64,000 nucleotides of DNA from Antedon mediterranea (lineage: Eukaryota > Echinodermata > Crinoidea > Comatulida > Antedonidae). A program made the translations under genes and the position numbers. Positions 24,015 to 62,279 of the stretch are shown here, one piece after another. The DNA lies in the NCBI RefSeq assembly GCF_964355755.1, contig NC_092673.1:1431001-1495000 (forward strand), given 5' to 3'. The notes under the pieces were generated by a model that saw nothing but the letters and a program-made list of their open reading frames with translations, was not told where the DNA came from and made no database searches. Position 1 is the first letter of the stretch; every line of letters starts with the position of its first letter.

Positions 24015-26988
<2,974 letters not shown>

Positions 26989-33597: not shown

Positions 33598-33796
33598 TGG
33601 TATTGTTCGAACTCGATTGGATAGCGACTCTTTAACATTCTCGGCGTGGGTACGGCGGAACAGCGCTAGTCCTCAGTTGTACGCACGCGCACCAGAGATC
33701 AAATTGATACGCCCTCATCTTACAGTATTTTTATTCACGAGGCGGGATCTCCGAAGAGATACTTTTATATATATAAACATATATATATATATATAT

Positions 33797-37523: not shown

Positions 37524-39128
37524 TTAGGTGATCATTTAGAATAAAATGATCACCTATTGTTATTGTATCAAATCTTTATTCTTCTTCTTCTTCTTCTTCT
37601 TCTTCTTCTACTTCTTCTTCTTCTTTCTGTACACTTTTTGTTTAACAAATATCTCAAAAAGTTAAATGTCAATGATTACCAAAATTTCACAATGTCTTTC
37701 AAATACTGTAACTTAGTCCTAATAAGCTTTTCAGCGTGATCACTCATCCGTGACAACACGTATATGCCATTTTGTGAAATCACATTATCAATCATATCTC
37801 CATAATTCATTATCACATATTAATGAAATTCACTACATGTAAACTTCAGGTCAAGGTAAAAAATATTAACAAATAAAAACCTGCGAGTTTCAAGGTCATG
37901 CGCATGAAATCGCGCGTTAAAATTTTAAAAAGCTCAAAATTAGGTTTTGATCAATTTAGAGCATGAATTAGGCCATTTGCGTGTTTCAAAAAATTACTGC
38001 GCAAAAACACGTTTTTGCGCACGCGATTCGTAAAAAGCGTAAAAAATAAAATTTGATGTATAAATCACAATCTACTCACAATCCTTAGTACATTCACCAA
38101 ATTTGAGTCCATTTCTACTTAAAATAGTGCTCTATGAGCACATTACAAATGACAAAATGCACACATTAATTGTACAAAAGTGCTAAAAATGGTAAAAAAT
38201 AAGGCCTTTTTAAAATGAAAATAAATCTTCAGAATGCACGATGACCCCTAAGTTTTTTAACTTATTCGGGATTGAGTTGTAGATATAAATGTATATACAC
38301 ATTAGACGTACAAAATGGTATTACGTCATCAAATGGCCACTTGAATTTAAAAATTAGGATTTTTTCCGTTTTGTGTAGGTTATCACATTCAATAGAGCGC
38401 ATCTCCGCTTTTTGAGCTCGATTTTTGCGCAAATTTCAGTGTGTGCTTGCCTAATTATTTATCTTTCTCATAAGTTGTCAGTGTTTTCATTTTGATGACG
38501 TCATCACGCGTAAAATTTTGAATAACGTAGGTCGTGTAATTTCACCTTCGCCGTAAATTGAATATTTTACAGCTCTTCAGAATTGAACGTTACCTTGATG
38601 ATTATAATTTATTATGAAAGCTGATGAAATGTAGATATGAATTCATATAAAAACCAAGCCTTTCGGATGTTGTGACATTAAAATATGGCCAGATGAAGTT
38701 AAAAAGTAGTTTTTACATCTTTTTCGTCAAAGTTATACAAATTTCAAAGAGCGGGCACAGCGCTTCTACGTGCCAGATTTTTTTCCAATTCTTATATTTA
38801 TTTGCTCAATTCATTATCTTTCGAAATTGTCATCTTTGAGTTTATTTTGATAATTCCATCATACCAAAAAATTAGAACATGATGTGTGTCCCGTAATTTC
38901 ACCTATGCTACACTGTATATAGATATACAGTATATACTGTACATATTTTATATGGCATATAATAGGCACAACTCAGCACTATAAGCGTATGCATCATGTC
39001 ATAGGATGGCGTACATCAACTTTTTACGATCGTATGTTAACGTACATGCATGTTTAAAAAGTGGTAATTTCATTAAAATGATAAAAATGATCACCTATAA
39101 TTCGTCAAAGTGACGAATTAAATTCTAG
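37524..39128 (+). mobile_element. Helitron/Helentron-like non-autonomous element, divergent single copy
   Basis: The left end is a palindrome: AGGTGATCATTT (37526-37537) and its complement (37544-37555). The same AAATGATCACCT recurs at 39085-39096, followed by the hairpin AATTCGTCA-AAG-TGACGAATT (39099-39119) and a terminal CTAG (39125-39128). This layout (left inverted repeat, internal right partner, 3' hairpin, CTAG end) matches rolling-circle elements with asymmetric inverted repeats. The 1.6-kb interior has no coding frame but shares motifs with the array at 45.7-56.8 kb. It sits in the TTA-rich tail of the LINE fragment. Confidence 0.75.
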
Positions 39129-40477
39129 CTATTATTGTCTTCATGTTTTACAAATAATATACCACTAAACACAGTAAAACATTGCGATGTAATACTTTGT
39201 TGAAACTATCACCGTCCTAGTCGATTGAAATAGTACAGTACATGTAACGATACATCACTACGACGTGTATATGTTTATATAATGTAAAACAATTTGTGAA
39301 AACCACCTCTATTCGGGGAAAATCATAAATTCGATTTAATCCTCAATAAATATTAAATTATCCAACTCAACTTAATTAGTTAGGCCTAATGGTTTTCAAT
39401 TGTTTCTTAGAGCCAATTCATACTTAAGTTGGTTCCTACCGGGGTTCCTACCCTACCCACCATAAAAGTTGTTCTGCGTTTAGGGCATGTGATGTACCTT
39501 AGGCCTATCCTCTACTGGTTTTACAACGCTACTCATGCCAGTGAGGGAAGGGTGATGATGTGGGTGGTTTAACTGCAATAATAACGATTTGTACATAATA
39601 TACGGCGAGTGAAAACGCTAGCTCATTATCCGTTTAAACAAAATTCATATCCAACCTCTGCAGCACAGATTGAAAAAAAAAATGGATCGAATTTCTGTTA
39701 TGAGTATACAGTAGTACTTGCCTTTACGACGCCTGAGGGAATAGACACTTGTGGAACAGAGATTGGAATGTTCCATTCATCGCAAATCAATACATTTGTA
39801 TAAACGTATATTAAATCTATCAAAATAGTATTTTTTTTAAAAAAATCGGCCTGTCTTCAACATTATGATGCTGTACTTGAGCTGTTCAACCGGTTTTCAG
39901 CCATTAAAAACAATTATCGTAAGAGGAGATAGGAAAATGCGAAGCTTCCTCGTATTATCGTCTGCGGGTATTTTTCAAGACGGACATCCATTAGACAGTG
40001 TATACCACTATTGAAAAACACCCCTATTTGGGGCAAATCGTTGAACCTAAATTCGTTTTAATCGTCAATAACTAATTATCGAACTAAATTTAATTAGTAA
40101 ACAGGGTTACATCAGGTGGTTAAAATCAGTACCGAAAGTACGAACCAACTTTATATACCATCGAGTAAACATTCTAGAAATAACGCGCGATTTACCGAAT
40201 TTTGCCCTTACGTAAATTTATATATAGATAATAATAAAGACTTATACTAATGAAGGAAGCCTCAATGTCCATATAATGTAATAATGTATTCAAACCTATA
40301 TATATATATTTCAGTTTTATTAATAACACTATAAATGATAAAATGGAGGAAAAAATGATGGGACACACATTAAGGCATTGTCAATCAACTAAAATGAGTC
40401 AATGGCGGTCTTATTGTTATCAACATAGGCCTATAGGTATTAGGAGTAGAAGTTATTCATCAATAATGACCACTTTG
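39129..40477. other. Gene-free interval
   Basis: No supported gene. Two diverged direct repeats share a TCGATTTAATCCTCAATAA-type block (about 39290-39380 and 40010-40100). This is the 3' flank of the GT31 gene on the minus strand. Confidence 0.45.
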
Positions 40478-42397
40478 CTAACATTTAACGGACGCGTCTG
40501 TAAAGTTGGTCCACACTTTAAATATTTCAACTGGTGATTTATACGGACCATGGACAACCATGCTCTTTAAAAGATCACATTTATCTGAATCACTATAACC
40601 CCAGTTTTTAAAACCATCATGATGCATTGGGATCACGCCTTCTTCCTCTGCTAAAATTCCTTGAAACGCGTCATCAATTGGTATAAGTGGTGTTTGTAAC
40701 GCTTTTAAATACATCCCGTGGATGACGTCGCTGGATAAGATGTAACCACCACCAGAACAATATGGCGGAAAATATTTCCCACTATACTCCTTGTGAGATA
40801 CGTAATATTTTGATTTTTCTCTTCGTACAATTCGACTGCGGGGTAAGACTGAACCCATGTAGAACTTTTCTAACGCTCTACCTTTCGCTCTAAGATTTAG
40901 TATATAACTGATGATGTTTTCAAAATTAACAAATATATCATCATCCCCTTTAAACATATACTCAGCATTTTGGCAATTTTCTGATACCCATTTTAATCCT
41001 AGAGCGACTTTTAGTGTCAAATTGTGAAAACTTTCAATAAAGTCTGCCTGTATTATATCTCCATATCTAATTTGTTCGTTTTTGACAATTGATTTGTATT
41101 GTTCATCTTCATTTTTTTTTAGTTGGCGTCCCATTACAAACAGAAATCGGATAGCCATCCCGATAACGTTATGAGATTTTGCCCACGTTTTTCTGATTAT
41201 GTCACGTTTACCAACATGCATTGGGAGTGTACTAATAAGCACAATCATAAATATATCTTCTGGTTTACCTTGGTCGTTTTTACAAAGATCAGGACTATTA
41301 ACAAGAAGGTAAAATCCTCTATCAAACAAATCACCATTCGAAACACTATTCGTTTGCATTATTAAATCCACTTCAGAATGTTCACACTTTTTAAAAAATT
41401 CAGGATTGGAAACATTCGCCCACAATTTTGCCGTTAAAAGTGATGTATCAAAACCACGAGCTGTAACAATGTTACGAAATAAACAAGTATCATGGTTTAA
41501 ATTTCTAAGCGTGAATCTTTTATCGTTAATAACTGTTACTCCAGCCTTTTCTGCTAAAATTGAAATGAACACATCTGCAATTGGGATAAAAGTTGAATTG
41601 AACGCTTCTTTCAAAATAATATTTGCACCTTTTTTTGAAAGTATTATTCCAGAATCCAGTGTACAAAATGGCGGGAAATATTTGCGCCCGAACTGCTTAG
41701 GAGATATATAATATTTTGAATTTGGTTCTCGAATTGGCGCGCGATTTGTTATTATATTTCCTGATACAAACGTGGATTCTTTCTTCTTTTTTTTTCCAAA
41801 TATTTTAAAGAAAACATCATAATTGACAAAGTTGTGATCATTCACCATAAAAATAAATTTGGCTTTAGGACAAAATGTTTGTGACCATTTTAATGCCATA
41901 AACGCTTTTAAACTTGATGTCCGGAAGTTGTCTTCAAACCTCCCTTGGAGCAAATCGCCATGATTTTCATTCTCCGTTGAAACAGATTCACCATATTGGA
42001 AGTTCGCATCCCTTCCTAAAATAAATAAAGTAACTATTCGTTTAAGTTTTCCGTGTTTTCCCCAAGATCTTCGAATTGCATTTCTCAAGTCAACATTTTT
42101 AGGACTTGAGTTAATAAATGTTATAGCAAGAACTGATTTACTTCCGTCGCAAATGCTAACACCTTGATCAACTTTCCGTGTCAGCATAATATCTTTAAGA
42201 ACCTTTATGTTTAGCAAGTTCGGCTCAACAGTATTTTCACTTTTACTCAAAATGGTTTTCTCTATTTCAATCGGAGAATTTCTACTCAGTCTTGGTTCTT
42301 CGTTTTCTTCCAAGTAAACCACGAAAAGTACAAATTGTAAAACAATAAAAGATACAATTGCTCCAACACCCCTTTGAATTGCCTTTCGTAATATCAT
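40478..42397 (-). CDS. Two-domain GT31 glycosyltransferase-like protein, copy 2
   Basis: A single-exon frame of 639 residues. A signal anchor lies at about 11-28 (IVSFIVLQFVLFVVYL), so a type II Golgi protein is predicted. GT31 domain 1 spans about 88-290 and domain 2 about 382-600. Domain 2 has KRDIIRKTWAKS, the intact KGDDDIFVN (DDD at 485-487), FPPYCSGGGYILSS and IDDAFQG. Domain 1 retains RNAIRRSWGK and FPPFCTLDSGIIL but has VNDHNFVN in place of DDD (185-192) and IADVFIS in place of IDDAFQG, so it is probably non-catalytic. Layout and both losses match copy 1 at 27586-29607, so the two derive from one ancestor that already had two domains. Substrate unknown. A 66-bp piece of this gene recurs at 43481-43546. 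Confidence 0.85.
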   Translation of the reverse strand: MILRKAIQRGVGAIVSFIVLQFVLFVVYLEENEEPRLSRNSPIEIEKTILSKSENTVEPNLLNIKVLKDIMLTRKVDQGVSICDGSKSVLAITFINSSPKNVDLRNAIRRSWGKHGKLKRIVTLFILGRDANFQYGESVSTENENHGDLLQGRFEDNFRTSSLKAFMALKWSQTFCPKAKFIFMVNDHNFVNYDVFFKIFGKKKKKESTFVSGNIITNRAPIREPNSKYYISPKQFGRKYFPPFCTLDSGIILSKKGANIILKEAFNSTFIPIADVFISILAEKAGVTVINDKRFTLRNLNHDTCLFRNIVTARGFDTSLLTAKLWANVSNPEFFKKCEHSEVDLIMQTNSVSNGDLFDRGFYLLVNSPDLCKNDQGKPEDIFMIVLISTLPMHVGKRDIIRKTWAKSHNVIGMAIRFLFVMGRQLKKNEDEQYKSIVKNEQIRYGDIIQADFIESFHNLTLKVALGLKWVSENCQNAEYMFKGDDDIFVNFENIISYILNLRAKGRALEKFYMGSVLPRSRIVRREKSKYYVSHKEYSGKYFPPYCSGGGYILSSDVIHGMYLKALQTPLIPIDDAFQGILAEEEGVIPMHHDGFKNWGYSDSDKCDLLKSMVVHGPYKSPVEIFKVWTNFTDASVKC

Positions 42398-43480
42398 TCT
42401 GTGTTAGTTGTGCTAAGAAATCTGAAACGAGATAAACAGCTGTTTACACCAACATTTCGACAAATGCTTCCTATAGGCCTAATGGTATACTTTTCGACTA
42501 AAAAGTGTAAGTTGTAATGTAAAGATGACACAAAATAGTTAATGCTTTAATTAATGTTTTCATATTAGTGATTCAACGCCCTCCCATGTGTCGAAATAAC
42601 ATGTATAAATGTACAATTAAATGTTGATAAATGTCTTAATAATTTGATTCCTTTCGTCAAATAGTTTTTAATAATTGGAGTTTCACATGTACACATTTGA
42701 CTGAAAAAATGTTAATAGACCCAATACGGGATATTATTAACTTTACTGTGTTCCTCAGTTTCCAGTTAAGCTTGAGGAAAAAATATGAATACGTTTAACT
42801 TTCTTTACCTTTACCTTTCATTTAACTTTACTTATTATTGATGAGCAAAGTCTTAGCAAACTTAGAAATACTTAACTCAAAACTAACCTTAACTGAATTT
42901 AATCCAAATTGGGTCCTTTTCTGTAAGTAATGTCCGAATGCTTTCCTTTTATATTTAAAATATCCGACACGTACAGTAGCATTTGTCGTATTCGATTGGG
43001 AACTTTCGTTGTCAACGTAAAGATTCGTTGAGTACTTTTTGTATTCGAATTGTAAATTTGTGCTCAACAGAAAGTCATTCGAATAGAAACGTTGACAAAC
43101 GAAAGCTTTTTCGTTAAGAACAATCTCAACGCTCAAAATACTCCGTTAAAGAAGTACTCAACGGTGAAAGTCTAAATCGAATACGACAATTATCGATAAA
43201 AACTAAGTGGAATGTCCTACTCTATACAAACGAACACAGTCGTTCCACTTAAAACTTCAATGTGATCAAGATTATGGAACGTTCCAAATGATTGGTTATC
43301 TTGGAAAAAATGTGGTCACTGCGATGAAAAACTGTTTAAACAAGACTATTGACCAAGGATCCACTTTTTGAACAAAAAAAAGTAAATAGGTTCTTGTTTG
43401 TTTTAGTTGGAGTACTTCTCTTAACACGACTCTCTTCATATTTGACTAAGTTTTAAAACGACAACAATGAGGAAATCTGT
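42398..43480. other. Upstream flank of GT31 copy 2; repeats, no gene
   Basis: AT-rich DNA. A ~65-bp block at about 42872-42938 (CTCAAAACTAACCTTAACTG, AATTTAATCCAAATTG) recurs at 45488-45550. TTGAGTACTT and AAGTACTCAA blocks at 43030-43160 form imperfect inverted repeats, and the minus-strand open frame there (42828-43136) is not supported as a gene. Confidence 0.45.
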
Positions 43481-45677: not shown

Positions 45678-45751
45678 TTAGTTATCCGCTTGGTATACCA
45701 AGCGGATAACTCCTTGTTATTGTATGAGATCAACATTTTTTTTCTGTATTA
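45678..45751 (+). mobile_element. Array: 5' end fragment of element G
   Basis: Holds the left palindrome AGTTATCCGCTTGGTATACC and its mirror, then CTCCTTG and a T-rich run ending CTGTATTA, where unit A begins. The element body that would continue this fragment most plausibly starts at 55245 (TTCTTCTTTCCTTCC), because intact unit A reads CTGTATTATACTTCTTTCC across the same point. Confidence 0.7.
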
Positions 45752-47342
45752 TTAGTTATCCGCTTAGTAGCGGATAACTCCTTGTAATCGTCCTGTTTCA
45801 TCATATTTTTTTTTTTTTTCTGTATTATACTTCTTTCCTTCTGTCATTTTTGTGCGTCGTGTTTCTCTAAAACGTGTAAACAGAACATATCGTAACTTTC
45901 TCAACATATCGACATTTACGTGAACTTGTGCACCTCCTATTTTTGAATGACGTCAGAGTTGCGCAACGTGACTTATGCGCGATTTTATGAATTTCAATGA
46001 TTGATCATAGACTAAAAACCAAACATAATTTTGTTTTGACACTTTGTGAAAATTTAAGTCATATCAAGCGCAAACTTTCTATGGATAGCATGTTTCACAA
46101 AAAGTTACGCGCGCACGCGCGTTTAAAATTTTACCATGGGAAAAATCAACTTCTAATCAACTTTCTATGCGTTTCATGTCATTTTGAGCATGTCAAAAAT
46201 TCCCACGCGCGCGAAAATTTTTACGCACGCGGTGCACACGAAGCGTTAAAAACATATTTTTTTCGCATGATTTATGTTTTTTCAACCTTTTCTAGTAATG
46301 TTACCAACTTTTAAACAATTTCGACTTAAAATTACGTCATACGAGCACGTCGAATTAGATAATTTGCACGCGTTTTTGGTGAAAAAATTCCAAAATTCGT
46401 CAAAATTATGCCTATTTTTAAACAGTCATAGATTCTAAACTACATGGAGAACTTTTTTTTAATTACATATTCTGGAAGTTGATGAGTTGTAGATATCGGA
46501 TCATGCATTAATATGGCTAACCGGACATTGTGACGTCATCGTATGGCCACGCGAATATAAAATATAGGATTTTTGTCTCTTTCGTCATAGCTCATCACAT
46601 TTAATAGAGCGCATCTCCACTTATTTTTTGTCCATTTTCACCCCGATTTTAATATATTCTAGGTCAATCAACTATCTTTTGCATGAATTAAAAATTTTTT
46701 AATTTGTTTAACGTCATCATGCCTAAAAATTTAAATTACGTTGGTCATTAATTTCATCTTTACAGTAAATTTTAATCTGTTATAGCTCGTAAGAATAAAA
46801 TGTGATAATCACAATTAAAACATTTACAGGAAGCTATTGTATAGTAGATACAAAATCATGTGAAAATTGTGCCAATCGAATGTTGTGACGTCATCATATG
46901 GCCAGTTGAATAAAAAAAGTCGTATTTTCATATTTTGCGTAATAGTTCATCACATTTAAAAGGGTGCGCATCTATATTTTACGTATTCAAATTTCTTCTA
47001 CACGTTAATATGTTTTTCCTGAGATAATTTCCTTCTGAAATTGCTATCTAAGTGTTTCATTTTGATACCGTCGCCATGTTAAAAATTGGAATAAATGGCG
47101 GGTCCCGTAATTTCACCTATTCTACACTGTATGTAATATGTATACAGATTATACTGTTTGCATGTATATACTATATGACACAAAATTGACAGAATTCAGC
47201 ACTAACAGCATATCTTATTCTTCAGTTCTTGTCATAATGCCATAATCTTTATCTGTGTGCAATATTCCAACGTATGACGTGCACGTAGCGTTTGTCGTGG
47301 TGCGGATAACTAACTCGTCAAAGTGACGAGTTTCATGTCTAG
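45752..47342 (+). mobile_element. Array: unit A, complete Helentron-like element
   Basis: About 1.59 kb. Left end TTAGTTATCCGC with palindrome partner GCGGATAACTCC; right end GCGGATAACT followed by the hairpin AACTCGTCA-AAG-TGACGAGTT, six bases, and CTAG (47339-47342). The 10-bp left repeat AGTTATCCGC pairs with the internal right copy, giving asymmetric terminal inverted repeats. No coding frame. Internal conserved blocks include GGACATTGTGACGTCATCG and TTGTGACGTCATCATATGG. Confidence 0.85.
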
Positions 47343-47419
47343 TTAGTTATCCGCTTAGTAGCGGATAACTCCTTGTAATCGTCCTGTTTCATCATATTTT
47401 TTTTTTTTTTCCTTTATTA
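47343..47419 (+). mobile_element. Array: 5' end fragment of element C
   Basis: Starts TTAGTTATCCGCTTAGTAGC directly after the CTAG of unit A and ends in CTTTATTA, where unit B is inserted. Joined across unit B to 49020 it would read CTTTATTATACTTATTTCC, closely matching unit A at the same place (CTGTATTATACTTCTTTCC). Confidence 0.8.
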
Positions 47420-49019
47420 TTGGTTATCCGCAACGAAGTTGCAGGATAACCTCTTGTGATTGTACGAAATCATCATCTTTTTTGTCATCTTCTTTCTTTC
47501 TGTATGATTTTTGTGTAACGCTTTTCTCTAAAACTTGCAAACATAACATTTTGTTAACTATGTTAACATTTTGACATTCACGTAACGTCGTCAAGCGAAG
47601 CTTTTCATGATGTTTACAATTGCGCAACGTGACGTACGCGCGATTTAACGATTTTCTCGTATTTAACATATGTCGAAAACCAAATAACATTTTAAAATGA
47701 AACTTTGCAAAAGTTTAATTTATATCATGCGCTAACTGTCTGTTGAAAAAAAATTGCGTGTTTTACACAAAGTTACGCGCGCACGCGCATTTAAAATTTC
47801 AAAATGCGCAAAATTAATTTATAATCAACTTTCTACGCGTTTCATGTCGTTTTGAGCATGTCAAAAATTCCCACGCGTGCGCACATTTTTACGTGTACGG
47901 TACGCACGTAGCATTGAAAACGTATTTTTTTCGCGTGATTTATGTTTTTTCAGCCTTTTCTAGTAATTTTACCAAATTTTAAACAATTTCGACTTAAAGA
48001 TACGTCATACGAGCACGTCGAATTGGACAATTTGCGCGCGTTTTTTATGAAAAGGTTAAAAAATTCGTTTAAAATATGCCTTTTTTTAAACAGTCGTAAT
48101 TTCTAAACTAGACGGTCAAATTTTTGTGGATGACATATTCTGGAAGTAGATGAGTTGTAGATATCGGATCAGGTATTAATATGGGTAACCGGACATTATG
48201 ACGTCATCGTATGGCCATGCGAATATAAAATTTAGGATTTTTGTATCTTTCGTCATAGCTCATCACATTGAATAGAGCGCATCTCCAATTATCCGTTTTC
48301 CATTTTCACCCCGATTTTGATATTGTCTAGGTCAATCAAGTATCTTTCGCATGAGTTAAAAATATTTTAATTTTTTTGACGTCATCGTGCCTAAAAATTT
48401 AAATCACGTGTGGCATTAATTTCATCTTTACAGTAAATGTTAATCTGTTATAGCTCGTAAGAATAAAATGTGATAATCACGATTAAAACTTTTTCTGGAA
48501 GCTATTGGATTGTAGATACGAAATTATGTAAAAATGTTGCCAATCGGATGTTGTGACGTCATCATATGGCCAGTTAAATAAAAAAGGTCGTATTTTCATC
48601 TTTTGCGTCATAATTCATTACATTTAAAAGAGCGCGCATCAATATTTCACGTATTCAAATTTCTTCTACACGCTAATACGTTGTTGCTGAGATAATTTCC
48701 TTTCGGAATTGCTACCTTCGCGTTTCATTTTAAAACCGTAAACATGTTAAAAAATTGCAATAAATAGCGGGTCCCGTAACTTCACCTATTCTATGTATGT
48801 CACTGTATGTGATAGATACAGATTATACTGTGTATACTATATATGAATTTAAATAATAAAATTCAGCAATAACAACATATCATATTCTTCAGTTCAGGTC
48901 ATAATGCCAACGTGAACACTTCCTTTTGTCCTCAACCTATCCCCTTAATGTTAATGTTGCACCACTTGCGCGGCGCGGCGGATAACCAAACTCGTCAAAG
49001 TGACGAGTTACATGTCTAG
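47420..49019 (+). mobile_element. Array: unit B, complete, inserted into element C
   Basis: About 1.6 kb. Left end TTGGTTATCCGCAACGAAGT with a palindrome; right partner GCGGATAACC, then hairpin and CTAG (49016-49019). Both left and right repeats end ...AACC/GGTT.. here rather than AACT/AGTT, so the two ends have changed together. The flanks A (47419) and T (49020) fit the A/T insertion site of Helitrons. Confidence 0.85.
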
Positions 49020-50530
49020 TACTTATTTCCTTCCGTCATTTTTGTGCGTCGCGTTTCTCTAAAACGTGTAAACAGAACATATCGTAACTTTGTCAACATA
49101 TCGACATTTACGTGAACTTGTGCACCTCCTATTTTTGAATGACGTCAGAGTTGCGCAACGTGAATTACGCGCGATTTTATGAATTTCAATGATTGATTAT
49201 AGACTAAAAACCAAACATAATTTTGTTTTGACACTTTGTGAAAATTTAAGTCACATCAAGCGCAAACTTTCTATGGATTAAAAATAGCACCATTCACAAA
49301 AAGTTACGCGCGCACGCGCGTTTAAAATTTTAGAGTGCGAAAAATCAACGTCTTATCAACTTTCTATGCGTTTCATGTCATTTTGAGCATGTCAACAATT
49401 CCCACGCGCGCGAAACTTTTTACGCACGCGGTGCACACGTAGCGTTAAAAACATATTTTTTTCGCGTGATTTATGTTTTTTCAGCCTTTTATAGTAATGT
49501 TACCAACTTTTAAACAATTTCGACTTAAAATTACGTCATACGAGCACGTCGAATTAAATAATTTGCACGCGTTTCTGGTGAAAAAGTTCAAAAATTCGTC
49601 AAAATTATACCTATTTTTAAACAGTCATAGATTCTAAACTACATGGAGAACTTTTTTTTAATTACATATTCTGGAAGTTGATGAGTTGTAGATATCGAAT
49701 CATGCATTAATATGGCTAACCGGACATTGTGACGTCATCGTATGGCCACGCAAAAATAAAATATAGGATTTTTGTCTCTTTCGTCATAGCTCATCACATT
49801 TAATAGAGCGCATCTCCACTTATTCGTTGTTCATTTTCACCCCGATTTTAATATCTTCTAGGTCTATCAACTATGTTTTGCATGAATTAAAAATTTTTTA
49901 ATTTTTTTAACGTCATCATGCCTAAAAATTTAAATTACGTTGGTCACTAATTTCATCTTTACAGTAAATTTTAATCTGTTATAGCTCGTAAGAATAAAAT
50001 GTGATAATCACGATTAAAACGTTTTCAGGAAGCTATTGTATTGTAGATACAAAATCATGTGAAAATTGTGCCAATCAAATGTTGTGACGTCATCATATGG
50101 CCAGTTAAATACAAAAAGTCATATTTTCATCTTTTGCGTTATATTTCATTACATTTAAAAGAGCGCGCATCAATATTTCACGTATTCAAATTTCTTCTAC
50201 ACGTTAATATGTTGTTGCTGAGATAATTTCATTCTGAAATTTCTACTTTTGCATTTCATTTTGAAACCGTCAAGATGTTAAAAATTACAATAAAATACGG
50301 GTCCCGTAATTTCACCTATTTTACACTGTTTGTGATATGTATACAGATTGTACTGTTACTATGTATATGACACAAAATAACAGAATTCAGAAATAACAAC
50401 ATATCATATTCTTCAGTTCAGGTCATAATGCCTTAATATTTTTCTGTGTGCAATATTCTAACGTATGACGTGCACGTGGCGTTTGTCGAGCGGATAACTA
50501 ACTCGTCAAAGTGACGAGTTTCATGTCTAG
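49020..50530 (+). mobile_element. Array: body of element C
   Basis: Lacks a left palindrome of its own and begins in the T-rich tract just inside the usual left end; it continues the fragment at 47343-47419. Right end GCGGATAACT, hairpin, TCATGT, CTAG (50527-50530). Carries TGACGTCA at 49140, 49730 and 50085, and TTGCGCAA beside the first. Confidence 0.8.
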
Positions 50531-50581
50531 TTAGTTATCCGCATTCAGCGGATAACTCCTTGTAACTGTCCTGTTACTTTT
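50531..50581 (+). mobile_element. Array: short 5' end fragment before unit D
   Basis: TTAGTTATCCGCATTCAGCG, its palindrome partner and CTCCTTGTAACTGTCCTGTTAC, ending in a T run where unit D begins. Its body may be the T-run-starting segment at 53709 (element F), but this pairing is less certain than that of element C. Confidence 0.6.
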
Positions 50582-52171
50582 TTAGTTATCCGCACTCAGC
50601 GGATAACTCCTTGTAACTGTCCTGTTTCATCATCTTTTTTTTTTTTCTGTATTATTCTTTCTTTCTGTCATTTTTGTGCAGAGCATATCTCAAAAACGTG
50701 TAAAGTTAACATTTCATAACTTTGTCAACATATGGGTATTCACCTGAAGTTGTGCTTTTCTATTTTTGAATGACGTCAGAATTGCACAACATGACTTACG
50801 CGCGTTTTAACGAATTTCGCGTATTTAACATACATCGAAAACCATATAACAATTTAAATTGAAACTTAACAAAAGTTTTAGTTATATCTTGCGCTAACTG
50901 ACTTTGTAAAAAAAATGGCATGTTTTACACGAAGTTACGCGCGCACGCGCTTTTAAAATTTCAAAACGCGAAAAATCAATTTCTAATCCACTTTCTACGC
51001 GTTTCATGTCATTTTGAGCAGGTAAAAAATTCCCACGCGTGCGCATTTTTTTACGCGCGCCGTGCGCACGTAGCGTTGAAAACAATTTTTTTTCACGTGA
51101 TTTATGTTTTTCCAGCCTTTTGTAGTAATTTTACCAACTTTTAAACGATTTAGACTTAAAATTACGTCATACGGGCACGTCGAATTGGATAATTTACGTG
51201 GGTTTTTGATGAAAAAGGTAAAAAATTCGTTAAAATTTGTCAAAATTATGCCTTTTTTTAAACAGTCGTAATTTCTAAACTGGACGGTCAACTTTTTGTG
51301 GATGACATATTCTTGAAGTTGATGAGGTGTAGATATCGGATCATGTAATAATATGGCTAACCGGACATTGTGACGTCATCGTATGGCCACGCGAATATAA
51401 AATATAGGATTTTTGTATCTTTCATCATAGCGCATGACATTTAATAGAGCGCATCTCCAATTATCTGTTTTCCATTTTTACCCCGATTTTTATATTATCT
51501 AGGTCAATCAACTATCTTTCGTATGAGTTAAAAATATTTTAATTTTTATGACGTCATCATGTCTAAAAATGTAAATAACGTGGGTCACTTATTTTCGTCT
51601 TTACAGTAAATTTCAATCTGTTATAGCTCGTCAGAATAAAACGTGATAATCATGATTAAAACGTTTTCTGGAAGCTATTGGATTGTAGATACGAATTTAT
51701 GTAAACATTTTGCCAATCGGATGTTGTGACGTCATCATATGACCAGTTAAATAAAAAAAGTCGTATTTTCATCTTTTGCGTCATAATTCATCACATTTAA
51801 AAGAGCGCGCATCAATATTTTACGTATTTAAATTTCTTCTACACATTAATATGTTGTTGCCGAGATAATTTCCTTCCGAAATTGCTATCTTAGTGTTTCA
51901 TTTTGATACCGTCGTTATGTTAAAAATTGGAATAAATGGCGGGTCCAGTCATTTCACCTATTCTACACAGTATGTAATATGTATACAGATTATATTGTAT
52001 ATATAATATGACACAAAATAACAGAATTCAGCAATAACAACATATCATATTCTTCAGTTCAGGTCATAGTGCCACAATCTTTTTCTGTGTGCAATATTCT
52101 AACGTATGACGTCTACGTGGCCTTTGTCGTGCGGATAACTAACTCGTCAAAGTGACGAGTTACATGTCTAG
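50582..52171 (+). mobile_element. Array: unit D, complete Helentron-like element
   Basis: About 1.59 kb. Left TTAGTTATCCGCACTCAGCG with palindrome; right GCGGATAACT, hairpin, TACATGT, CTAG (52168-52171). Contains four TGACGTCA sites (50771, 51371, 51549, 51727). No coding frame. Confidence 0.85.
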
Positions 52172-53708
52172 TATTCTTCTTCTTTCTTTCTGTATGATTT
52201 TTGTGTAACGCTTTTCTCTAAAACTCGCAAACATAACATTTCGGTAACTATGTTAACATTTTGACATTTATGTAACGTCGTCAAGCGAAGCTTTTCATGA
52301 TGTTTACAATTGCGCAACGTGACGTACGCGCGATTTAACGATTTTCTCGTATCTAACATATGTCGAAAACCAAATAACATTTTAAAGTGAAACTTTGCAA
52401 AAGTTTAATTTATATCATGCGCTAACTTTCTGTTGAAAAAAAATTGCGTGTTTTACACAAAGTTACGCGCGCACGCGTATTTAAAATTTCAAAATGCGCA
52501 AAATTAATTTATAATCAACTTTCTACGCGTTTTATGTCGTTTTAAGCATGTCAAAAATTCCCACGCGTGCGCACATTTTTACGTGTGCGGTGCGCACGTA
52601 GCATTGAAAACGTATTTTTTTCGCGTGATTTATGTTTTTCCAGCCTTTTCTAGCAATTTTACCAAATTTTAAACAATTTCGACTTAAAGATACGTCATAC
52701 GAGCACGTCGAATTGGACAATTTGCGCGCGTTTTTTATGAAAAGGTCAAAAAATTCGTTTAAAATATGCCTTTTTTTAAACAGTCGTAATTTCTAAACTA
52801 GACGGTCAACTTTTTGTGGATGACATATTCTGGAAGTAGATGAGTTGTAGATATCGGATCAGGTATTAATATGGCTAACCGGACATTGTGACGTCATCGT
52901 ATGGCCACGCGAATATAAAATTTAGGATTTTTGTATCTTTCGTCATAACTCATCACATTGAATAGAGCGCATCTCCACCTATTCGTTTTCCATTTTCACC
53001 CTGATTTTGATATTGTCTAGGTCAATCAACTATCTTTCGCATGAGTTAAAAATATTTTAATTTTTTTGACGTCATCATGCCTAAAAATTTAAATCACGTG
53101 TGGCATCAATTTCATCTTTACAGTAAATTTTAATCTGTTATAGCTCGTAAGAATAAAATGTGATAATCACGATTAAAACTTTTTCTGGAAGCTATTGGAT
53201 TGTAGATACGAAATTAAGTAAAAATGTTGCCAATCGGATGTTGTGACGTCATCATATGGCCAGTTAAATGAAAAAGGTCGTATTTTCATCTTTTGCGTCA
53301 TAATTCATTACATTTAAAAGAGCGCGCATCAATATTTCACGTATTCAAATTTCTTCTACACGCTAATACGTTGTTGCTGAGATAATTTCCTTTCGGAATT
53401 GCTACCTTCGCGTTTTATTTTAAAACCGTCAACATGTTAAAAATTGCAATAAATAGCAGGTCCCGTAATTTCACCTATTCTACACTGTATGTCACTGTAT
53501 GTGATATGGATACAGAATATACTGTGTATACTATATATGAATTTAAATAATAAAATTCAGCAATAACAACATATCATATTCTTCAGTTCAGATCATAATG
53601 CCAACGTGAACACTTCCTTTTGTCCTCAACCTATCCCCTTAATGTTAATGTTGCACCACTTGCGCGGCGGATAACCAAACTCGTCAAAGTGACGAGTTAC
53701 ATGTCTAG
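52172..53708 (+). mobile_element. Array: unit E, B-type, 5' end missing
   Basis: Very close to unit B along its length (for example TGTATGATTTTTGTGTAACG and CCAACGTGAACACTTCCTTT), with the B-type right repeat GCGGATAACC, hairpin and CTAG (53705-53708). It starts after a short TATTC in the TCTTCTTTC tract. No B-type left end (GGTTATCC) is found before it, so the first ~60 bp appear to be lost. Confidence 0.8.
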
Positions 53709-55244
53709 TTTTTTTTTCTTTCTTTCTCCCTCATTTTTGTGGCTCGCGTATCTCAAAAACGTGTAAACATAACATGTTATAACTTTGTCAGCATGAGGGC
53801 ATTCAGGTGAAGTTGTGCACCTCCTATTTTTGAATGACGTCAGAGTTGCGCAACATGACTTACGCGCGTTTTTACGAATTTCGCATTTTTAACATAGATT
53901 GAAAACCATATAGCAATTTAAATTGAAACTTAACGAAAGTTTAATTGATATCTTGCGCTAACAGAATGTGAAAAAAAAATGGCATGTTTCAAAGGAAGTT
54001 ACGCGCGCACGCGCGTTTAAAATTTCAAAATGCGAAAAATCAATTTCTAATCAACTTTCTACGCGTTTCATGTCATTTTGAGCATGTAAAAAATTCCCAC
54101 GTACGCGCATTTTTTTATGCGTGCGGTGCGCACGTAGCGTTGAAAACCATTTTTTTCGCGTGATTTATGTTTTTCCAGCCTTTTCTAGTAATTTTACCAA
54201 CTTTTGAACAATTTCGACTTAAAATTACGTCATACGGGCACGTCGAATTGGATAATTTACGTGCATTTTTGATGAAAAAGTTCAAAAAGTCGTCAAAATT
54301 TGTCAAAATTATGCCCTTTTTTAAACAGTTATAGTTCCTAAACTAAACGGTGAAAGTTATTTTTATTGCATATTCTGAAAGTTGATGAGTTGTAAATTTT
54401 GAATCATGCATTAATATGGCTAACCGGACATTGTGACGTCACCGTATGCCCACGCGAATATAAAATATAGGATTTTTGTATCTTTCATCATAGCGCATGA
54501 CATTTAATAGAGCGCATCTCCAATTATCTGTTTTCCATTTTTACCCCGATTTTTATATTATCTAGGTCAATCAACTATCTTTCGTATGAGTTAAAAATAT
54601 TTTAATATTTATGACGTCATCATGTCTAAAAATGTAAATAACGTGGGTCACTTATTTTCGTCCTTACAGTAAATTTCAATCTGTTATAGCTCGTCAGAAT
54701 AAAACGTGATAATCATGATTAAAACGTTTTCTGGAAGCTATTGAATTGTAGATACGAATTCATGTAAACATTTTGCCAATCGGATGTTGTGACGTCATCA
54801 TATGGCCAGTTGAATAAAAAAAGGCGTATTTTCATATTTTGCGTAATAGTTCATCACATTTAAAAGGGCGCGCATCTATATTTTACGTATTCAAATTTCT
54901 TCTACACGTTAATATGTGGTTGCTGAGATAATGTCCTTCCGAAATTGCTAACTTAGTGTTTCATTTTGATACCGTCGCCATGTTAAAAATAAGAATAAAT
55001 GGGGGGTCTCGTAATTTCACCTATTCTACACTGTATGTAACATGTATACAGAGTATACCGTTTGCACTGTATATACTATATGACACAAAATAGACTGAAT
55101 TCAGCACTAACAACGTATGATATTCTTCAGTTCAGGTCATAATGCCATAATCTTTATCTGTGTGCAATATTCCAACGTATGACGTGCACGTGGCGTTTGT
55201 CGTGCGGATAACTAACTCGTCAAAGTGACGAGTTTCATGTCTAG
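53709..55244 (+). mobile_element. Array: unit F, 5' end missing or displaced
   Basis: Begins in a T run (TTTTTTTTCTTTCTTTC) directly after the CTAG of unit E and ends with GCGGATAACT, hairpin, CTAG (55241-55244). Shares AAAACGTGTAAAC and ATCTCAAAAACG with unit D. Four TGACGTCA sites. The left palindrome may be the fragment at 50531-50581. Confidence 0.75.
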
Positions 55245-56796
55245 TTCTTCTTTCCTTCCTTCCTTTTTGTGAGTCGCGTTTCTCTAAAATGTGTAAACAT
55301 AACATTTCATAACTTTGACAACATATGGGCATTTACGTGAAGTTGTGCACCTCCTATTTTTGAATGACGTCATAGTTGCGCAACGTGACTTACGCGCAAT
55401 TTTATGAATTTCAATGATTGATCATAGATTAAAAACCAAAAGTCATTTAGTATTGACACTTTGACAAAATTTAAGTCATATCAGGGGCAAACTTTCTACG
55501 GATTAAAAATGGCATGTTTCACAAGAAGTTACGCGCGCACGCGCATTTAAAATTTCAAAATGCGCAAAATTAATTTCTAATCAACTTTTTACGCGTTTCA
55601 TGTCATTTTGAGCATGTCAAAAATTCCCACGGGCGCGCGATTTTTTACGCACGCGGTGCGCACGTAGCGATAAAAACATATTTTTTTCTCTTGAATTATA
55701 TTTTTCAAGCCTTTCCTAGTAATTTTGAAAACAATTTAGAACTTTTCCAGTTTAAATAACGCCATACGAACACGTTGAATTAGACAATTTGTGCGCGTTT
55801 TTTATGAAAAAGCTTAAAAAATCATCAAAATAATGTCTTTTTTTAAACAGTCATAGTTTCTAAAGTAAACCGTGAACCGTTTATTTTTATTACAAAATCT
55901 AGAAGTTGATGAGTTGCAGATATCGGATCATGCATCGATAAGGCTAAAAAAACATTGTGACGTAATCGTATGGCCACACGAATGTAAAATATAGGATTTT
56001 TGTCTGTTTCGTTATTGCTCATCACATTCAATGGAGCGCATCACGCTTATCTGTATTCCTTTTTCTCCTATATTTATATATTGTCTAGGTTAATCAACTT
56101 TCTTTAGCATGAGATAAAAATATTTTAATTTTTATAACGTCATCATGCCTAAAAATTTTAATTACGTGGGTCATTAATTTCATCTTTACAGTAAATTTTA
56201 ATCTGTAATAGCTCGTAAGAATAAAATGTGATAATCACGATTAAAACGTTTTCTGGAAGCTATAGGATTGTAGATACGAATTCATGTAAACATTTTGCCA
56301 ATCGGATGTTGTGACGTCATCATATTGCCAGTTGAATAAAAAAAGTCGTATTTTCATATTTTGCGTAATAGTTCATCACATTTAAATGTGCGCGCACCAA
56401 CATTTTACGTATTCAAATTTCTTCTACACGTTAATATGTTGTTGCTAAGATAATTTTCTTCAGAAATTGCTATCGTTGTGTTGTTTTTTTTATGACGTCA
56501 TCATGTTAAATATTTGAATTAAAGGCAGGTCCCATAATTCAGTTAATATGTCATATAATAATACAGTAGTACAATGTACACCAGCATAGTCTCTGATGTG
56601 AGCAAATTGTTGTTTGCCGCCCTCTGTATCATGTAGAATTAATGTCTCCTTTTATACACAGTGTACTGTATAATTATAATAGGCTACAAGGCGAAAATAC
56701 AGGACCACCTCTTATTATAGTTTTTAACGTATGACGTGCACGTGGCATCTGTCGTGCGGATAACTAACTCGTCAAAGTGACGAGTTTCATGTCTAG
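55245..56796 (+). mobile_element. Array: body of element G, outermost unit
   Basis: Starts TTCTTCTTTCCTTCC with no left palindrome and ends GCGGATAACT, hairpin, TCATGT, CTAG (56793-56796). It is the most diverged copy: one of the usual CRE-like sites reads TGACGTAA. This fits its being the oldest element into which the others inserted. It probably pairs with the fragment at 45678-45751. Confidence 0.75.
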
Positions 56797-57351: not shown

Positions 57352-60300
57352 TTACAATGCATTTTTCAGATACGTTTTAAACAACTTAACTGATTTTGGA
57401 AGGGTATCAATATTGAGACTATTCCATAATTGCTCCACGATAAGACAGACTTCGTTTTTTAAAATCTGTTTTTGGCTTTGGGATGAATAGATGTGTATCA
57501 CTGTTCCTTAGATTATAATTTATATCATTGAATGTAAATACATTATTTAGGTAAGGTGGGGCATTATCTGTCAAAACCTTATATATAACCATACAACATT
57601 CATATCTATCTTGATAAAATAAAGGTGACCAATTAATTTGCCTTAGTGCCTCACTACTAGGTGTGTCCCATGTTAGACCACACACGATTCGAGCTGTTCT
57701 GTTTTGGATAGTTTGAACTCTTTTCATTAGAGTTTGACTACTATTTCCCCAAATTATGTTACAATAGCTCAAGTAAGGTATTACAATAGAGTTTGCAATA
57801 TGTTTTAATATGTTTTGTGGAAAATAATAGCTACATCGTCTAAGCATACCCAATCCATTTAGAGCTTTACCTCGAATGTATTCAATCTGATTTTTCCATG
57901 ATAAATGTTCGTCTATTATGATACCGAGATGTTTGCAATATAGAACGCGTGGTACAACATCGTTATCTATATTAACTGATCTATTTTTTTCTTTGGTGGT
58001 TGCCAATCGGTTTGTCGATCCGATCAACATGAACTCGGATTTAGAGACATTTAGACTCAATTTATTATTTTTTAGCCAATCGTCGATTTGTATAAGTTCT
58101 TCATTTATACTTTGGTATATTTCATTTTCATTTTTTGAAGAACAATAAATTATAGTATCGTCAGCATACATACTTATTTTACATTTGTTTGCAACTTTCG
58201 ATAGGTCATTTATATATAAGAGGAAAGCAAGTGGGCCCACGATTGACCCCTGAGGCACTCCACATTGGATGTGTGTATAGTCAGACAATGTATTATTTAC
58301 ATTTGTGAATTGCTTTCGCTCAGACAGATAGCTCTCGAACCATTTTAAAACATATTTACTTAAACCATAAAGTCTCAATTTGCTTAATAGTATGTTATGG
58401 TTTACCGTATCAAAGGCCTTTTTAAAATCTAGTAAACAGATTCCGACCAGCTTACCCTCGTCTATTGCACTATACCAGTCTTCCGTCACTTTTGTAAGTG
58501 CAGTAGATGTTGAGTATGATGGTCGAAAACCTGATTGATTTATACATAACAGATTATTATTATTCAAAAAAGCATAAAGTTGATTAAAAACGACTCGTTC
58601 AATTATTTTTGAAAGTATAGGTAGGACGGAAATGGGACGATAATTATTAGGGTTAGTTTTTTCACCATTCTTAAAAATTGGCGTGACCTTTGCTATTTTC
58701 CACGTATTTGGGAATTTACATGTTGTGAAGGAGTGATTTATAATTCTTGTAATTGTTGGGGATATAATCGGGGCAGACAGTTTTAGAATGCCCGGTGGTA
58801 AGTTATCATGACCAGTGGCTTTGTTTTTTGAAAGATTATTTAAGTATTTATATACAAATTCACATGTGATGTGTTCGAATTCAAAATTATTTTCGGTAAA
58901 AGCATCGATTTCATCATAATTTATATCATTTATCGGCTCATGTATTTGTGATGCAAGATTTGAACCTATATTTGAGAAAAATGTATTAATTTCATTTGCG
59001 ATGTCCTTGGCTTTATAGAGGACATCGCCATTATCATTGCAAATTGTTTGAATAGTTTGAGTTTTCTTTTTTGACGATATAATATATCTTATGGTATCCC
59101 ATGTTTTTTTTACATCGTTTTTATTTTCTTTTATACTTTCTTGAATAAAATTAGCTTTACTTTTACGTATTAATTTATTGCACATATTTCTATACTTTCT
59201 GTACCTTTTCCAGAGTGATTCATTTTTAGAATGTTTACATTCTCTTTTGAGTTTATCTCTTTCTCTCATATTTTCAATTACATCATCAGAGAGCCAAGGA
59301 GCTGTTTTTTTACGTACCCTGTGTTTTTTCCAAGGAGCATGTTTATCTAAAATGTTGGTTAGTGTAGTTTCGAGAAGTTTGGCACTCTGACTTACGTCGC
59401 CACTGGCTGTAATACCATTCCAATTTACCATTAATAAATCGTTTAAAAAACTGTCTTCATTAAATTTTTTAAAGTTTCGTGTCATTTTATAATTATGATC
59501 CTGTTTAATAATTTTATTTGTTTTTTTGGAATCTTTATTATTTTTCGCCCCTTTCCCTATTATAGCGAATGGCATTGAGTGGTCACTTAAGCCGACGTGG
59601 ATAACTCCAGACTTTAATATTTTAGAAACATTTGAGAAATACATGACATCTATTAATGTAGAGGAATGTTTTTCTATACGTGTTGGTTCTTCAATGATCT
59701 GTTTTAGATTAAAATTTTCACTTAATTCAATTAGTTTCTTTGTGTAGCAATGTGGATTGTCAGACATAACGTCACAGTTTAAATCTCCCATCATCATAAT
59801 ATCTTTGTGTTCCAGTTCAATCTTTTGAAATATATTTTGTAAATATTCAAAAAGAACTGCTGTAGTATTTGGAGGTCTATACCACAATAGAACAATTAGA
59901 TTTTTACATTTATCACGTACTATTTCAATAGATAGGAGTTCGAGTTCATTACACATTAGATCATTCCTAATTTTGTGGTTGGTTTTTAGATTTATATAGA
60001 GTGCTACACCTCCACCTTTTTTAGTTTTACGTCTATCTAGTCTGTGTAATATATAGTTGTCAACATGAAAATCTTCATCAATAAATGTATTATCGAGAAA
60101 TGTTTCGCTTAAGCCAAAAACATTGAAATTGTTGTTATTTAGAATACGTTGCAATTCATCAAAATGTAAGTCTAGGCTACGTATATTTAAATGTGCAAAT
60201 ATAAAACCCTTTTGATTAAGTTCCTCAAATATATGAGGATCTTTTTTAACTATTTGGTTTATATCTGTTATTGTATTATTCCTATTATTTATTACATATG

Positions 60301-60406
60301 AGTGGTTATCATTAATTAATACATCATCTATGGCCTGGGAACATTCAGTAGTATTGTTAGTCTCTTTTTCGGACTGTGACTTTAATGTACTTCTTAGACT
60401 CTTTGG
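57352..60406 (-). CDS. LINE ORF2: AP endonuclease and reverse transcriptase
   Basis: An uninterrupted frame from 60406 to 57419 (about 995 codons), followed by a frameshift near 57425 after which the usual C-terminal WNSLNIDTLPKSVKLF continues to the TAA at 57352. The N-terminal endonuclease has FAHLNIRSLD, FGLSETFL, DLNCDVM and VGLSDHSM. The RT has PNNYRPISVLPILSKIIERV, GFRPSYSTSTAL, LDFKKAFDTVNH, GVPQGSIVGPL and the catalytic YADDT. This is a CR1/L2-type non-LTR element that copies its RNA at a nicked target. No AUG lies between the ORF1 stop and the endonuclease; the frame is the same as ORF1. The element is nearly intact apart from the C-terminal shift. Confidence 0.93.
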
Positions 60407-61726
60407 TCAATTATTTCGTTCGTAATAATAATGATCATAATTATGTACATTACCACAATATCTTGCTTTATGACCATATTGACCACATGATTTACATGTT
60501 AACTGTTCTTGAAAGTAGCATTCGTAAGCTTGATGGTTGTTTAGTCCACATTTCCAGCATGGTTCATACATAATATAGTTTGACTCTTTTGAGCCATAAC
60601 TAAAGTGTTGGTAACTGTCATTCCTTGCTTGTTGATTATAATAACCATGTCTATTTCGTTTCCAGGGGCGTGTATTTTGATTTCTGTTTGTTTGACATTC
60701 TTGAGCATGTTGCCTGGATGATGATTTCTCTGTATATTGAAATTGGAGATCATCAATATTTTCAGAGAATAGTTTACCTAGTCGTATGGATCCAGTTATG
60801 TTGAAATGTAAGCCATCAATGAATAGGGATTCATCAACTGAGCCACATTGGTACACACATTTTGATGAGATGTTTATGAAGCCAGTATCCAGCCGTGTAC
60901 TGAGTTCGCTAAGTGCTGTATTTACACTTTGAATATCATCCATATGATTTGGGCGTGGAGGAATTGCTGATATATAAAGCTTCGATGTTGGTGACTTCAC
61001 CATGACCATCGTGATTATTTTTTCCATTGATTCTTGGATTTCTGTTACCACCTTACCATTTGAGACATCATTTGTTTCTACTTGTATAATTATATTTGCA
61101 TATGAATTTAAGTTTTTGGATTCTTGTAGTTTATGGTATATATCTTCGGTAACCGCACCACGTTTCACTATGACATCAGTGTCCTTAAACCATGAGTTAT
61201 CCATATCTCTGAGCATACTGTCCCCAATTATAAGGGTTTTGTGGATTGGATTCGTGCTCTCTGGTCTGATTATATTATCTGAGGAGGTGTTTAATCGGCC
61301 GTATCGCTCAAGATCACCCTCAAGTTTGTTGACCTTTACGTTTAAGCTTGTCATTTGTTGCTTTAGTTTTTTGTTTTCATCTTCTAGACTTGCTTGCCGT
61401 TTCTTAACATGATCGTTTTCAGTAGAAATTTTGTTTACATTTGTCTGTAAGGACTCAACTTTTTCTTTCAGTTGTTTTACTATGAAACTTATATCCTTTT
61501 TGCAATTTTGACATGCCCATTTTGGATTTGGTCGCCTCTTTAGGTCAACACATGTCAGGTGATATGAGTTTCTGCAGTTCGAGCATTTTACTAGTGTTCC
61601 ATTAGTTTTTTTACAGGTTTCCAAGCTACAATTTGTACTAGTAGCACTAGACTGCTCATCCAGTGTCCCTGTTTGTTGATCATTTGGCTTAGATTTGTCG
61701 TTTGTTTCGTCTGGCATACTTAGCAA
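60407..61726 (-). CDS. LINE ORF1: PHD finger, coiled coil, SGNH esterase, CCHC knuckles
   Basis: 439 residues. An N-terminal PHD-like zinc finger (CSLETCKKTNGTLVKCSNC, HLTC, WACQNC at about 33-79) is followed by a leucine/lysine-rich coiled coil (about 85-140). Next is an SGNH-type esterase with TLIIGDSML (block I), an ETND variant of the GxND block, and IDGLHFN (catalytic Asp-His). A basic linker leads to two CCHC knuckles (CWKCGLNNHQAYEC and CKSCGQYGHKARYC), ending YYYERNN and TGA at 60407-60409. PHD plus esterase is the known ORF1 layout of CR1-clade LINEs. It probably binds element RNA. ORF2 follows in the same frame. Confidence 0.9.
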   Translation of the reverse strand: MLSMPDETNDKSKPNDQQTGTLDEQSSATSTNCSLETCKKTNGTLVKCSNCRNSYHLTCVDLKRRPNPKWACQNCKKDISFIVKQLKEKVESLQTNVNKISTENDHVKKRQASLEDENKKLKQQMTSLNVKVNKLEGDLERYGRLNTSSDNIIRPESTNPIHKTLIIGDSMLRDMDNSWFKDTDVIVKRGAVTEDIYHKLQESKNLNSYANIIIQVETNDVSNGKVVTEIQESMEKIITMVMVKSPTSKLYISAIPPRPNHMDDIQSVNTALSELSTRLDTGFINISSKCVYQCGSVDESLFIDGLHFNITGSIRLGKLFSENIDDLQFQYTEKSSSRQHAQECQTNRNQNTRPWKRNRHGYYNQQARNDSYQHFSYGSKESNYIMYEPCWKCGLNNHQAYECYFQEQLTCKSCGQYGHKARYCGNVHNYDHYYYERNN

Positions 61727-62279
61727 ATAAAATGTAGACCCTTAGTAGGCCTATGCCGTCGTCTATCTTTGCTATCGACCTCAATTGTGTAGGTGAAACT
61801 TTCCTCAGAGATCAATCAGAGAAGATCAAATCAAAGATCAAATCAAATATCAAAAGATAGGCCCAGGTGTGTGTTTCGTAATCAGCTTGGATACCGGTAG
61901 CGTCCTTGGATACGGTTGATAGGTACGCTGTCAAACGGTAACGTAGCGTTGTGAGGCCTAGTCAGACAAGTTTGTTGAAAAACACACCTTAACTTACGAT
62001 TTGACTTATTTCAGGTGGTATGTTAGTAGCTTGAAAGTTCAAATCAAACAATATGCAGGGTTCAGTTTAGCAATAAGTAAGACACAATCGATTTTGTGAC
62101 TTTTAAACATACAATTTATTGCCGATTTTTAAAAGCGTCGTTCAACATGTACGCCCTCAACTACTTGACTGCAATCGCGTGCTCATTAGTGTTTACCGAA
62201 CGACCGACCAACCTACCAACTGACCGAAATTACTGAACATGTTTAAAAATGTTGAAATGTTTAAAAACATTTATATTTT
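61727..62279 (-). other. LINE 5' UTR and flank
   Basis: No coding signal. The LINE 5' end lies somewhere in the first few hundred bases, but I cannot fix it and see no target duplication. The tandem AAGATCAAATCAAA block (about 61822-61850) and AACTGACCGA-type repeats are the only patterns. Confidence 0.4.

Follow-up and report, generated by a model that had tools for sequence, protein, structure and literature searches.

Matched ends and self-insertion in nested arrays of probable non-autonomous Helentrons in Antedon mediterranea

Within a 64,000-nucleotide stretch of the Antedon mediterranea genome (hereafter the window; C4:1431001-1495000), positions 45680-56796 hold six left palindromes and seven right ends belonging to ~1.6-kb elements without long open reading frames (ORFs). 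The locus raises two linked questions: how the left and right ends of different families are partnered in so crowded a tower of elements, and how the tower was built. We addressed both with searches of the genome (354 Mb in 18 contigs) and with comparable arrays fetched from it. The units are very probably non-autonomous Helentrons (HINEs, of the Helitron2 group) with matched ends, nested by self-insertion.

Each element consists of a left palindrome, a body, an inverted copy of the palindrome's outer arm placed just before a near-constant hairpin, and a CTAG end. The right end reads, in order, GCGGATAACT or GCGGATAACC, a spacer, AACTCGTCA-AAG-TGACGAGTT, a short tail and CTAG. The core TCGTCAAAGTGACGA has eight exact matches in the window, one at 39102 and seven between 47315 and 56769; with up to two mismatches it has nine, against 0.13 expected from shuffled sequences. 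Genome-wide it occurs 2,510 times, and the same pattern read backwards, used as a control, does not occur at all. Left palindromes AGTTATCCGC stand at 45680, 45754, 47345, 50533 and 50584, GGTTATCCGC at 47422 and AGGTGATCATTT at 37526. Other parts of the ends are constant, namely a TTGTNAYTGT-like motif and a T-rich tract on the left and the hairpin, tail and CTAG on the right. The longest stop-to-stop frame in the tower is 123 amino acids, the only one of at least 120.

In the window and the fetched copies taken together, five kinds of matched ends can be distinguished, which we call A, B, E, F and G. A ends are AGTTATCCGC / GCGGATAACT, and F ends, in which both arms are replaced, are AGGTGATCATTT / AAATGATCACCT; B, E and G share GGTTATCCGC / GCGGATAACC, with pre-hairpin spacers A, CG and T, respectively. 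The right arms GCGGATAACT, GCGGATAACC and AAATGATCACCT thereby track the family. By eye, the matching arm spans ~10 bp in A, B, E and G, where the 11th base does not follow and no match past 10 bp was seen; in F it spans 12 bp. The B left palindrome carries an extra A in its second half (GCAGGATAACC), and the B right arm (GCGGATAACC) is an exact complement of the outer left arm; because only that half matches, B points to the outer left arm as the partner of the right arm. An earlier note, made from the window alone, had listed these palindromes, arms, hairpin and CTAG ends, all of which we recovered at their positions, and had called the hairpin nearly constant. This description holds for A, B and E, apart from one A copy with TCAATG, but not for F (AATTCGTCA-AAG-TGACGAATT) or for G at the C8 locus, which has a different loop (CTCGTC-CGTAGT or CGCAGT-GACGAG). 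Exact A and B right ends account for 1,582 of the 2,510 genomic cores, with E and F outside this count; G was counted apart, as 830 strand-wise matches of a palindromic stem, not all of which are G right ends. A partial genome census for other arms, limited to arms that do not begin with T and have G/T five positions ahead of the core, so that arms with A/C at that position escape it, returned six matches, one resembling a new arm.

To pair ends, we matched left with right ends as a stack of brackets in four arrays: the window and three fetched arrays, arr916 (C1:916501-943500), arr5692 and arr3147. In this strict parse, 45 of 48 pairs have ends of the same type, against a permutation mean of 33.0 and no permutation as high in 20,000. 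The parse leaves aside the incomplete C8 tower, isolated copies and the first 1,180 bases of arr3147, and includes one right end without CTAG. An earlier, less complete parse, which omitted the segments 11,600-30,262 and 35,310-70,000 of arr5692 that are now taken in, gave same-type ends in 38 of 39 pairs. On C1 below 29.7 Mb, where pairing used exact end matches only, 128 of 141 pairs agree (permutation mean 103.7, maximum 116 in 5,000). These counts bear out the proposal that arms differ between lineages with the two ends of each element in agreement. Joint recognition of both ends is the reading we favour, because left and right types agree in nearly all stack pairs.

The correlated end changes that the earlier note proposed to look for were followed on a tree of element bodies. 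A first tree of 70 copies was distorted by truncated and interrupted copies; the final tree comprises 38 rows, eight rows having been dropped and B thinned from 31 to 7, and the reconstruction of arm changes used the 24 of these rows for which both ends are known. The left arm changes three times and the right arm three times, jointly in all three independent pairs. B, E and G are each recovered as groups with 100/100 support, and the B and E bodies belong to separate clades, both of them supported and both also holding A copies.

The order of ends within the arrays is distinctive: left ends are stacked, and are followed by headless bodies with right ends, in bracket order. In arr916, 13 left and 13 right ends form one closed 13-pair bracket word. 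The arrays are thus nested, not head-to-tail, and the complete units in a row of the earlier note must be reread: the ends it described are real, but several of its units are headless bodies, with a left end that lies upstream of other units. With B ends only, taken on C1 as exact 30-mers up to 29.79 Mb (96 left, 100 right), stack matching closes 88 pairs at a 35-kb cluster gap (shuffled maximum 84 in 5,000) and 92 at a 40-kb gap (shuffled maximum 89 in 5,000). A 90-kb C1 cluster spans the Rep locus C1:3140090, with one right end open for B alone and two for A and B together. Genome-wide, exact ends number 558 left and 557 right for B, and 1018 left and 1025 right for A, the latter from patterns with 27 and 28 fixed bases. 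These counts fit nearly every A or B copy having both ends; bypass of right ends, which would add right ends, and composites with several left ends, which would add left ends, therefore contributed little. The incomplete G tower on C8 has nine left and four right ends.

The bracket order arises because copies insert inside the tract of resident left palindromes, or directly after an earlier insert there. Insertion is of the form TT^T, with TT on the left and T on the right in all 39 elements of the first parse. In five arrays including the window, we classified the 62 left ends that are not the first of their array, applying no distance cut (an earlier left-to-left count was cut at 150 bp). 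For 42 of them the preceding end is another left end, at a distance of 23-55 bp in 39 cases and of 0 in three, and 19 lie 2-17 bp after a right end, in the remaining tract. The stretch 20-60 bp past the palindrome holds only 14 of the 233 TT sites of a B element, or 18 of the 238 of an A element (6-8%). In the arrays, copies usually enter the T-rich tract, 23-55 bp inward of a resident left palindrome. At about even odds in our estimate, these Helentrons bring a landing site with them: insertions favour the tract inside the left palindrome well out of proportion to the TT sites it holds, a Rep/endonuclease bound at resident left ends perhaps directs the incoming strand there, and the towers would be self-built, with nested ends rarely mixed despite same-family inner ends between them.

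Body length is normal in 48 of 51 elements; the others are one shortened copy, one with ~9.6 kb inside and one that bears a Rep. The ~9.6 kb of sequence splits a B body near its right end (L034 3016 to L035 2588; arr5692 ~13016-22588). The zero-gap left ends are tandem palindromes with the junction GGATAA-TT-[A/G]GTTATCC, in which TT replaces the last two bases of the palindrome; direct palindrome repeats occur at L036 3653-3748 (arr5692 33653-33748) and, on the minus strand, at L041 ~8874-8923. The host bases missing at these junctions were found after no right end in the arr5692 end list.

A candidate source of the transposition protein lies among the Rep-helicase loci. A profile search with PF14214 found 87 places in the genome, many with open frames of ~3,000 amino acids. 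One ORF at C1:5734505-5743762 (3,086 amino acids) contains OTU, DUF6570, Helitron_like_N, PIF1 and Exo_endo_phos domains; PF14214, PF05970 and PF03372 match its C-terminal 2,498 amino acids, and the N-terminal 587 matched no family. By eye, its translation carries the Rep motif GSPHVH (IEFQMRGSPHVHM), which corresponds to the Helentron-type GSPHxH described in PMC4067079 (consulted in part). The ORF is antisense to the A-type ends that enclose it, a left end at arr5692 38539 and a right end at 69810, and positions 1-1400 and 1412-1589 of the A element match the two sides of this locus at 86.6% and 89.9%. A possible autonomous copy with the same ends, for which a search had been suggested, was thereby located, and the Helitron2/Helentron assignment made from the window alone is upheld. 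Some Helentrons have an RPA-like second ORF; beside the Rep, the A-flanked locus holds no second ORF of at least 150 amino acids, introns not being considered. On C8, a further tower is flanked by two Reps that lie ~22 kb from each other and run antisense to G-type ends. This C8 layout favours the reading that the 29.7 kb between the A flanks may be the element's own inside, rather than sequence inserted into a HINE.

The span from the Rep ORF to the A-type right end (in L038 and L039) holds tandem repeats (periods 16-48 bp, L038) and a diverged partial A copy (arr5692 67789-68668). On C8, a tandem array with a ~343-bp period and copies ~90% alike stands between the Rep start and a G-type right end (L042 3696-6206; C8_870 13696-16206), reminiscent of the satellite-like repeats inside oyster HINEs described in the consulted parts of PMC7492417. 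A second Helitron_like_N group (L009-L013; frames of 402-1,452 amino acids) scores above the 3,000-amino-acid group in Pfam and is perhaps another rolling-circle lineage.

Several known features place these elements. According to the consulted parts of Bao and Jurka (2013, PMC3627910), Helitron2 elements have a 5' asymmetric terminal inverted repeat (ATIR) 0-2 bp from the left end, in a hairpin with the following bases, and a 3' ATIR that precedes a hairpin and lies ~20-30 bp from the right end, with RepHel antisense in some; compensating base changes keep the two ATIRs matched between related elements. Here, the palindrome starts the element directly after TT and is predicted by folding to form a hairpin, and the right arm is separated by 0-2 bp from the hairpin that follows it and by ~30 bp from the CTAG end. 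The compensating changes given there concern one pair, Helitron-1N1_CQu/-1N2_CQu, in contrast to the several families and the C1 pairs counted above, and nested towers, present here, go unmentioned in the same parts. Helentrons and HINEs, as treated in the consulted parts of Thomas, Vadnagara and Pritham (2014, PMC4067079), have palindromic subterminal inverted repeats (subTIRs), a 3' palindrome and insertion at TT/T-rich sites, with a Rep-PIF1-endonuclease carrying GSPHxH as partner and families defined by identical subTIRs. The Antedon elements share the subTIR-type ends, the 3' palindrome, the TT insertion and the type of partner: Rep, PIF1 helicase and a C-terminal endonuclease stand in one protein, and the boundaries of all 39 parsed elements read as TT targets without target duplication. 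They also lack coding capacity and share their ends with the Rep-bearing locus, the Rep being presumably that element's own. Those parts of PMC4067079 describe no comparable nested arrays, and the 3,086-amino-acid ORF with OTU and DUF6570 is a further difference.

Canonical Helitrons (Helitron1) do not fit, as the elements start with A/G-GTT (AGGTG in F) rather than 5'-TC and insert at TT^T rather than A-T. The 3' hairpin and CTAG are common to both, but Helraiser, in the consulted parts of PMC4778049, has no terminal inverted repeats and inserts at A-T, in contrast to the matched arms and TT^T found here. FoHeli of Fusarium oxysporum, as far as described in the consulted parts of PMC5148889, has ATIRs, self-insertion and multiple 5' termini; it shows one nested case together with composites that have several 5' ends and a single 3' end, unlike the near-equal A (~1,020) and B (558) ends in Antedon. 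Matched ATIRs, compensating changes, TT insertion, antisense Rep and self-insertion are thus already published in the consulted parts of PMC3627910, PMC4067079 and PMC5148889. Large balanced nested towers were not reported in the surveyed titles and abstract openings, a coverage that leaves out most subscription journals.

The end data suggest the following scheme. The family-specific parts of the ends, the left palindrome and the right copy of its outer arm, would have to match, both serving one transposition event. The Helentron Rep-helicase-endonuclease, encoded antisense to the ends in ~20-31-kb loci, would most likely nick the left end, unwind to the matching right end, stop at the hairpin and CTAG, and join the single strand into a TT^T target; with the resident T-rich tract as the usual target, arrays would grow inwards as nested towers. 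We infer here the order of nicking and stopping, the recogniser of the arm, protein or single-strand pairing, and the reason why resident left ends are chosen. Recognition of the arm, at the left as at the right end, is most likely by a Helentron protein. In the consulted parts of PMC3627910, Bao and Jurka propose that the 5' ATIR, by pairing with the 3' ATIR, releases the 5' hairpin and in this way sets the end point. Left-right pairing as the preferred single-strand fold was seen only in G, where the centroid disagrees, and such folds say little about a Rep-bound strand.

A number of observations weigh against matched, jointly recognised ends in self-built towers. Three of the 48 strict pairs disagree, one of six in the window and two of 18 in arr5692, a pattern that fits a few lost or mutated ends. 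On C1, 13 of the 141 pairs disagree; a single 122-kb cluster, in which 37 of 46 pairs agree, accounts for nine of these. Of the 39 clusters there, 22 close completely, and five left and 16 right ends stay open. With three joint changes on the body tree, significance is out of reach (sign test p 0.25), and G branches from an unresolved fork of that tree. The motif TTGCGC near the right arm is common to B, E and G, which makes the independence of their arm changes uncertain and end modules moved by recombination possible. Single-strand folds prefer the local left palindrome over left-right pairing in four of five junctions. The new-looking right arm at C5:15441275 failed a direct prediction, as its expected left partner has no exact match genome-wide and no left palindrome for it was seen by eye in 1 kb, ~0.9-1.9 kb upstream. 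One of the 62 left ends, a B end, lies in the right-end tail of an A element. Divergence, moreover, is no greater in hosts than in the copies inserted into them (rho with depth -0.26, p 0.42, n=12; -0.08, p 0.82, n=10), with the host higher in 10 comparisons, the insert in nine and one tie; an older age of the host thus finds no divergence trend. As to the B end in the A tail, it stands between hairpin and CTAG at L036 6770-6842 (arr5692 36770-36842), outside the usual tract.

Alternative histories can be weighed against the same data. Should recombination have spread end modules between families, the matched GG ends of B, E and G would come from one source, and there would have been one joint change, not three. 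The shared TTGCGC would then be explained, as would the similarity of the B and E left palindromes and the ~75 bp of the B right module in which no A homology is visible by eye. By eye, however, the G right flank resembles A as far as the arm, and B, E and G have different hairpin loops and spacers; the clades that separate the B and E bodies, each with A copies inside, also speak against a single source. We regard this history as possible, if doubtful.

A second alternative dispenses with selection: the right arm would derive from the left palindrome, or the left palindrome from the right arm, through template switching or conversion while the two ends are joined in an intermediate. Such an intermediate would place both arms close together, but the B right arm complements the outer left arm and not the second half with its extra A, sequence past 10 bp is not homogenised and the spacers between arm and hairpin vary by family. 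We consider copying unlikely. Joint recognition and copying from end to end had been offered side by side in the earlier note; the type agreement in the strict pairs sustains the former, and the B right arm, which does not reproduce the left second half, tells against the latter. Least probable in our view, and very much so, are rolling-circle concatemers or right-end bypass, in which one event would lay down several units head to tail and matched ends would reflect copying. The even size of the bodies would suit such an origin. Stacked left ends followed by headless bodies in bracket order do not, nor do adjacent units that are often of different families or left and right counts that are almost equal where bypass would add right ends; head-to-tail concatemers are accordingly disfavoured. 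Joint recognition of the ends, with self-insertion into resident left ends, thus remains the favoured account.

Table 1. Elements and element parts in the window (window positions)
Feature	Position	Strand
Complete F element: AGGTGATCATTT...AAATGATCACCT left palindrome, right arm AAATGATCACCT, hairpin AATTCGTCAAAGTGACGAATT, CTAG	37526..39128	+
Outermost A element of the tower: left palindrome (45680-45711) and tract	45680..45753	+
Complete A element, nested in the T-rich tract of the element starting at 45680	45754..47342	+
Right-module example: hairpin AACTCGTCA-AAG-TGACGAGTT, short tail, CTAG; at all seven right ends, tail slightly variable	47312..47342	+
A element, left end and tract, interrupted by a B element; body resumes at 49020 and ends at 50530	47345..47421	+
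Complete B element with GGTTATCCGC ends, inserted into the left tract of the A element from 47345	47422..49019	+
Body and right end of the A element starting at 47345; tract rejoins	49020..50530	+
A left end and tract; partner in the strict parse is the B right end at 53708	50533..50583	+
Complete A element	50584..52171	+
B body and right end; no B left end found for it, read as lost	52172..53708	+
A body and right end	53709..55244	+
A body and right end; probable rest of the outermost element from 45680; end left open in the strict parse	55245..56796	+

The window tower also offers an internal empty site, as the tract after 50533 joined to 53709 onward resembles, by eye, the uninterrupted left end of L028. 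This sequence continuity points to a continuation of the A left end at 50533 in the body 53709-55244. Outside the tower, the base after CTAG is C at the window's F element (39125-39129) and T at the other six fetched F right ends. Two minus-strand ORFs of 674 and 641 amino acids (27586-29610 and 40478-42403) resemble duplicated galactosyltransferase genes by eye. Adjacent minus-strand ORFs of 995 and 444 amino acids (57419-61741) resemble a non-long-terminal-repeat retrotransposon, with endonuclease and reverse transcriptase and a PHD-like first ORF (by eye).

With so many exact A and B ends in one genome, Helentron end recognition becomes testable by changing one arm at a time. Bracket order together with equal end counts provides a simple sequence test of self-insertion versus end-bypass as the source of Helitron arrays. 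The balanced nesting itself points to resident left ends as an integration target, and the near-equal numbers of left and right ends make both the choice of target and the partnering of ends testable.

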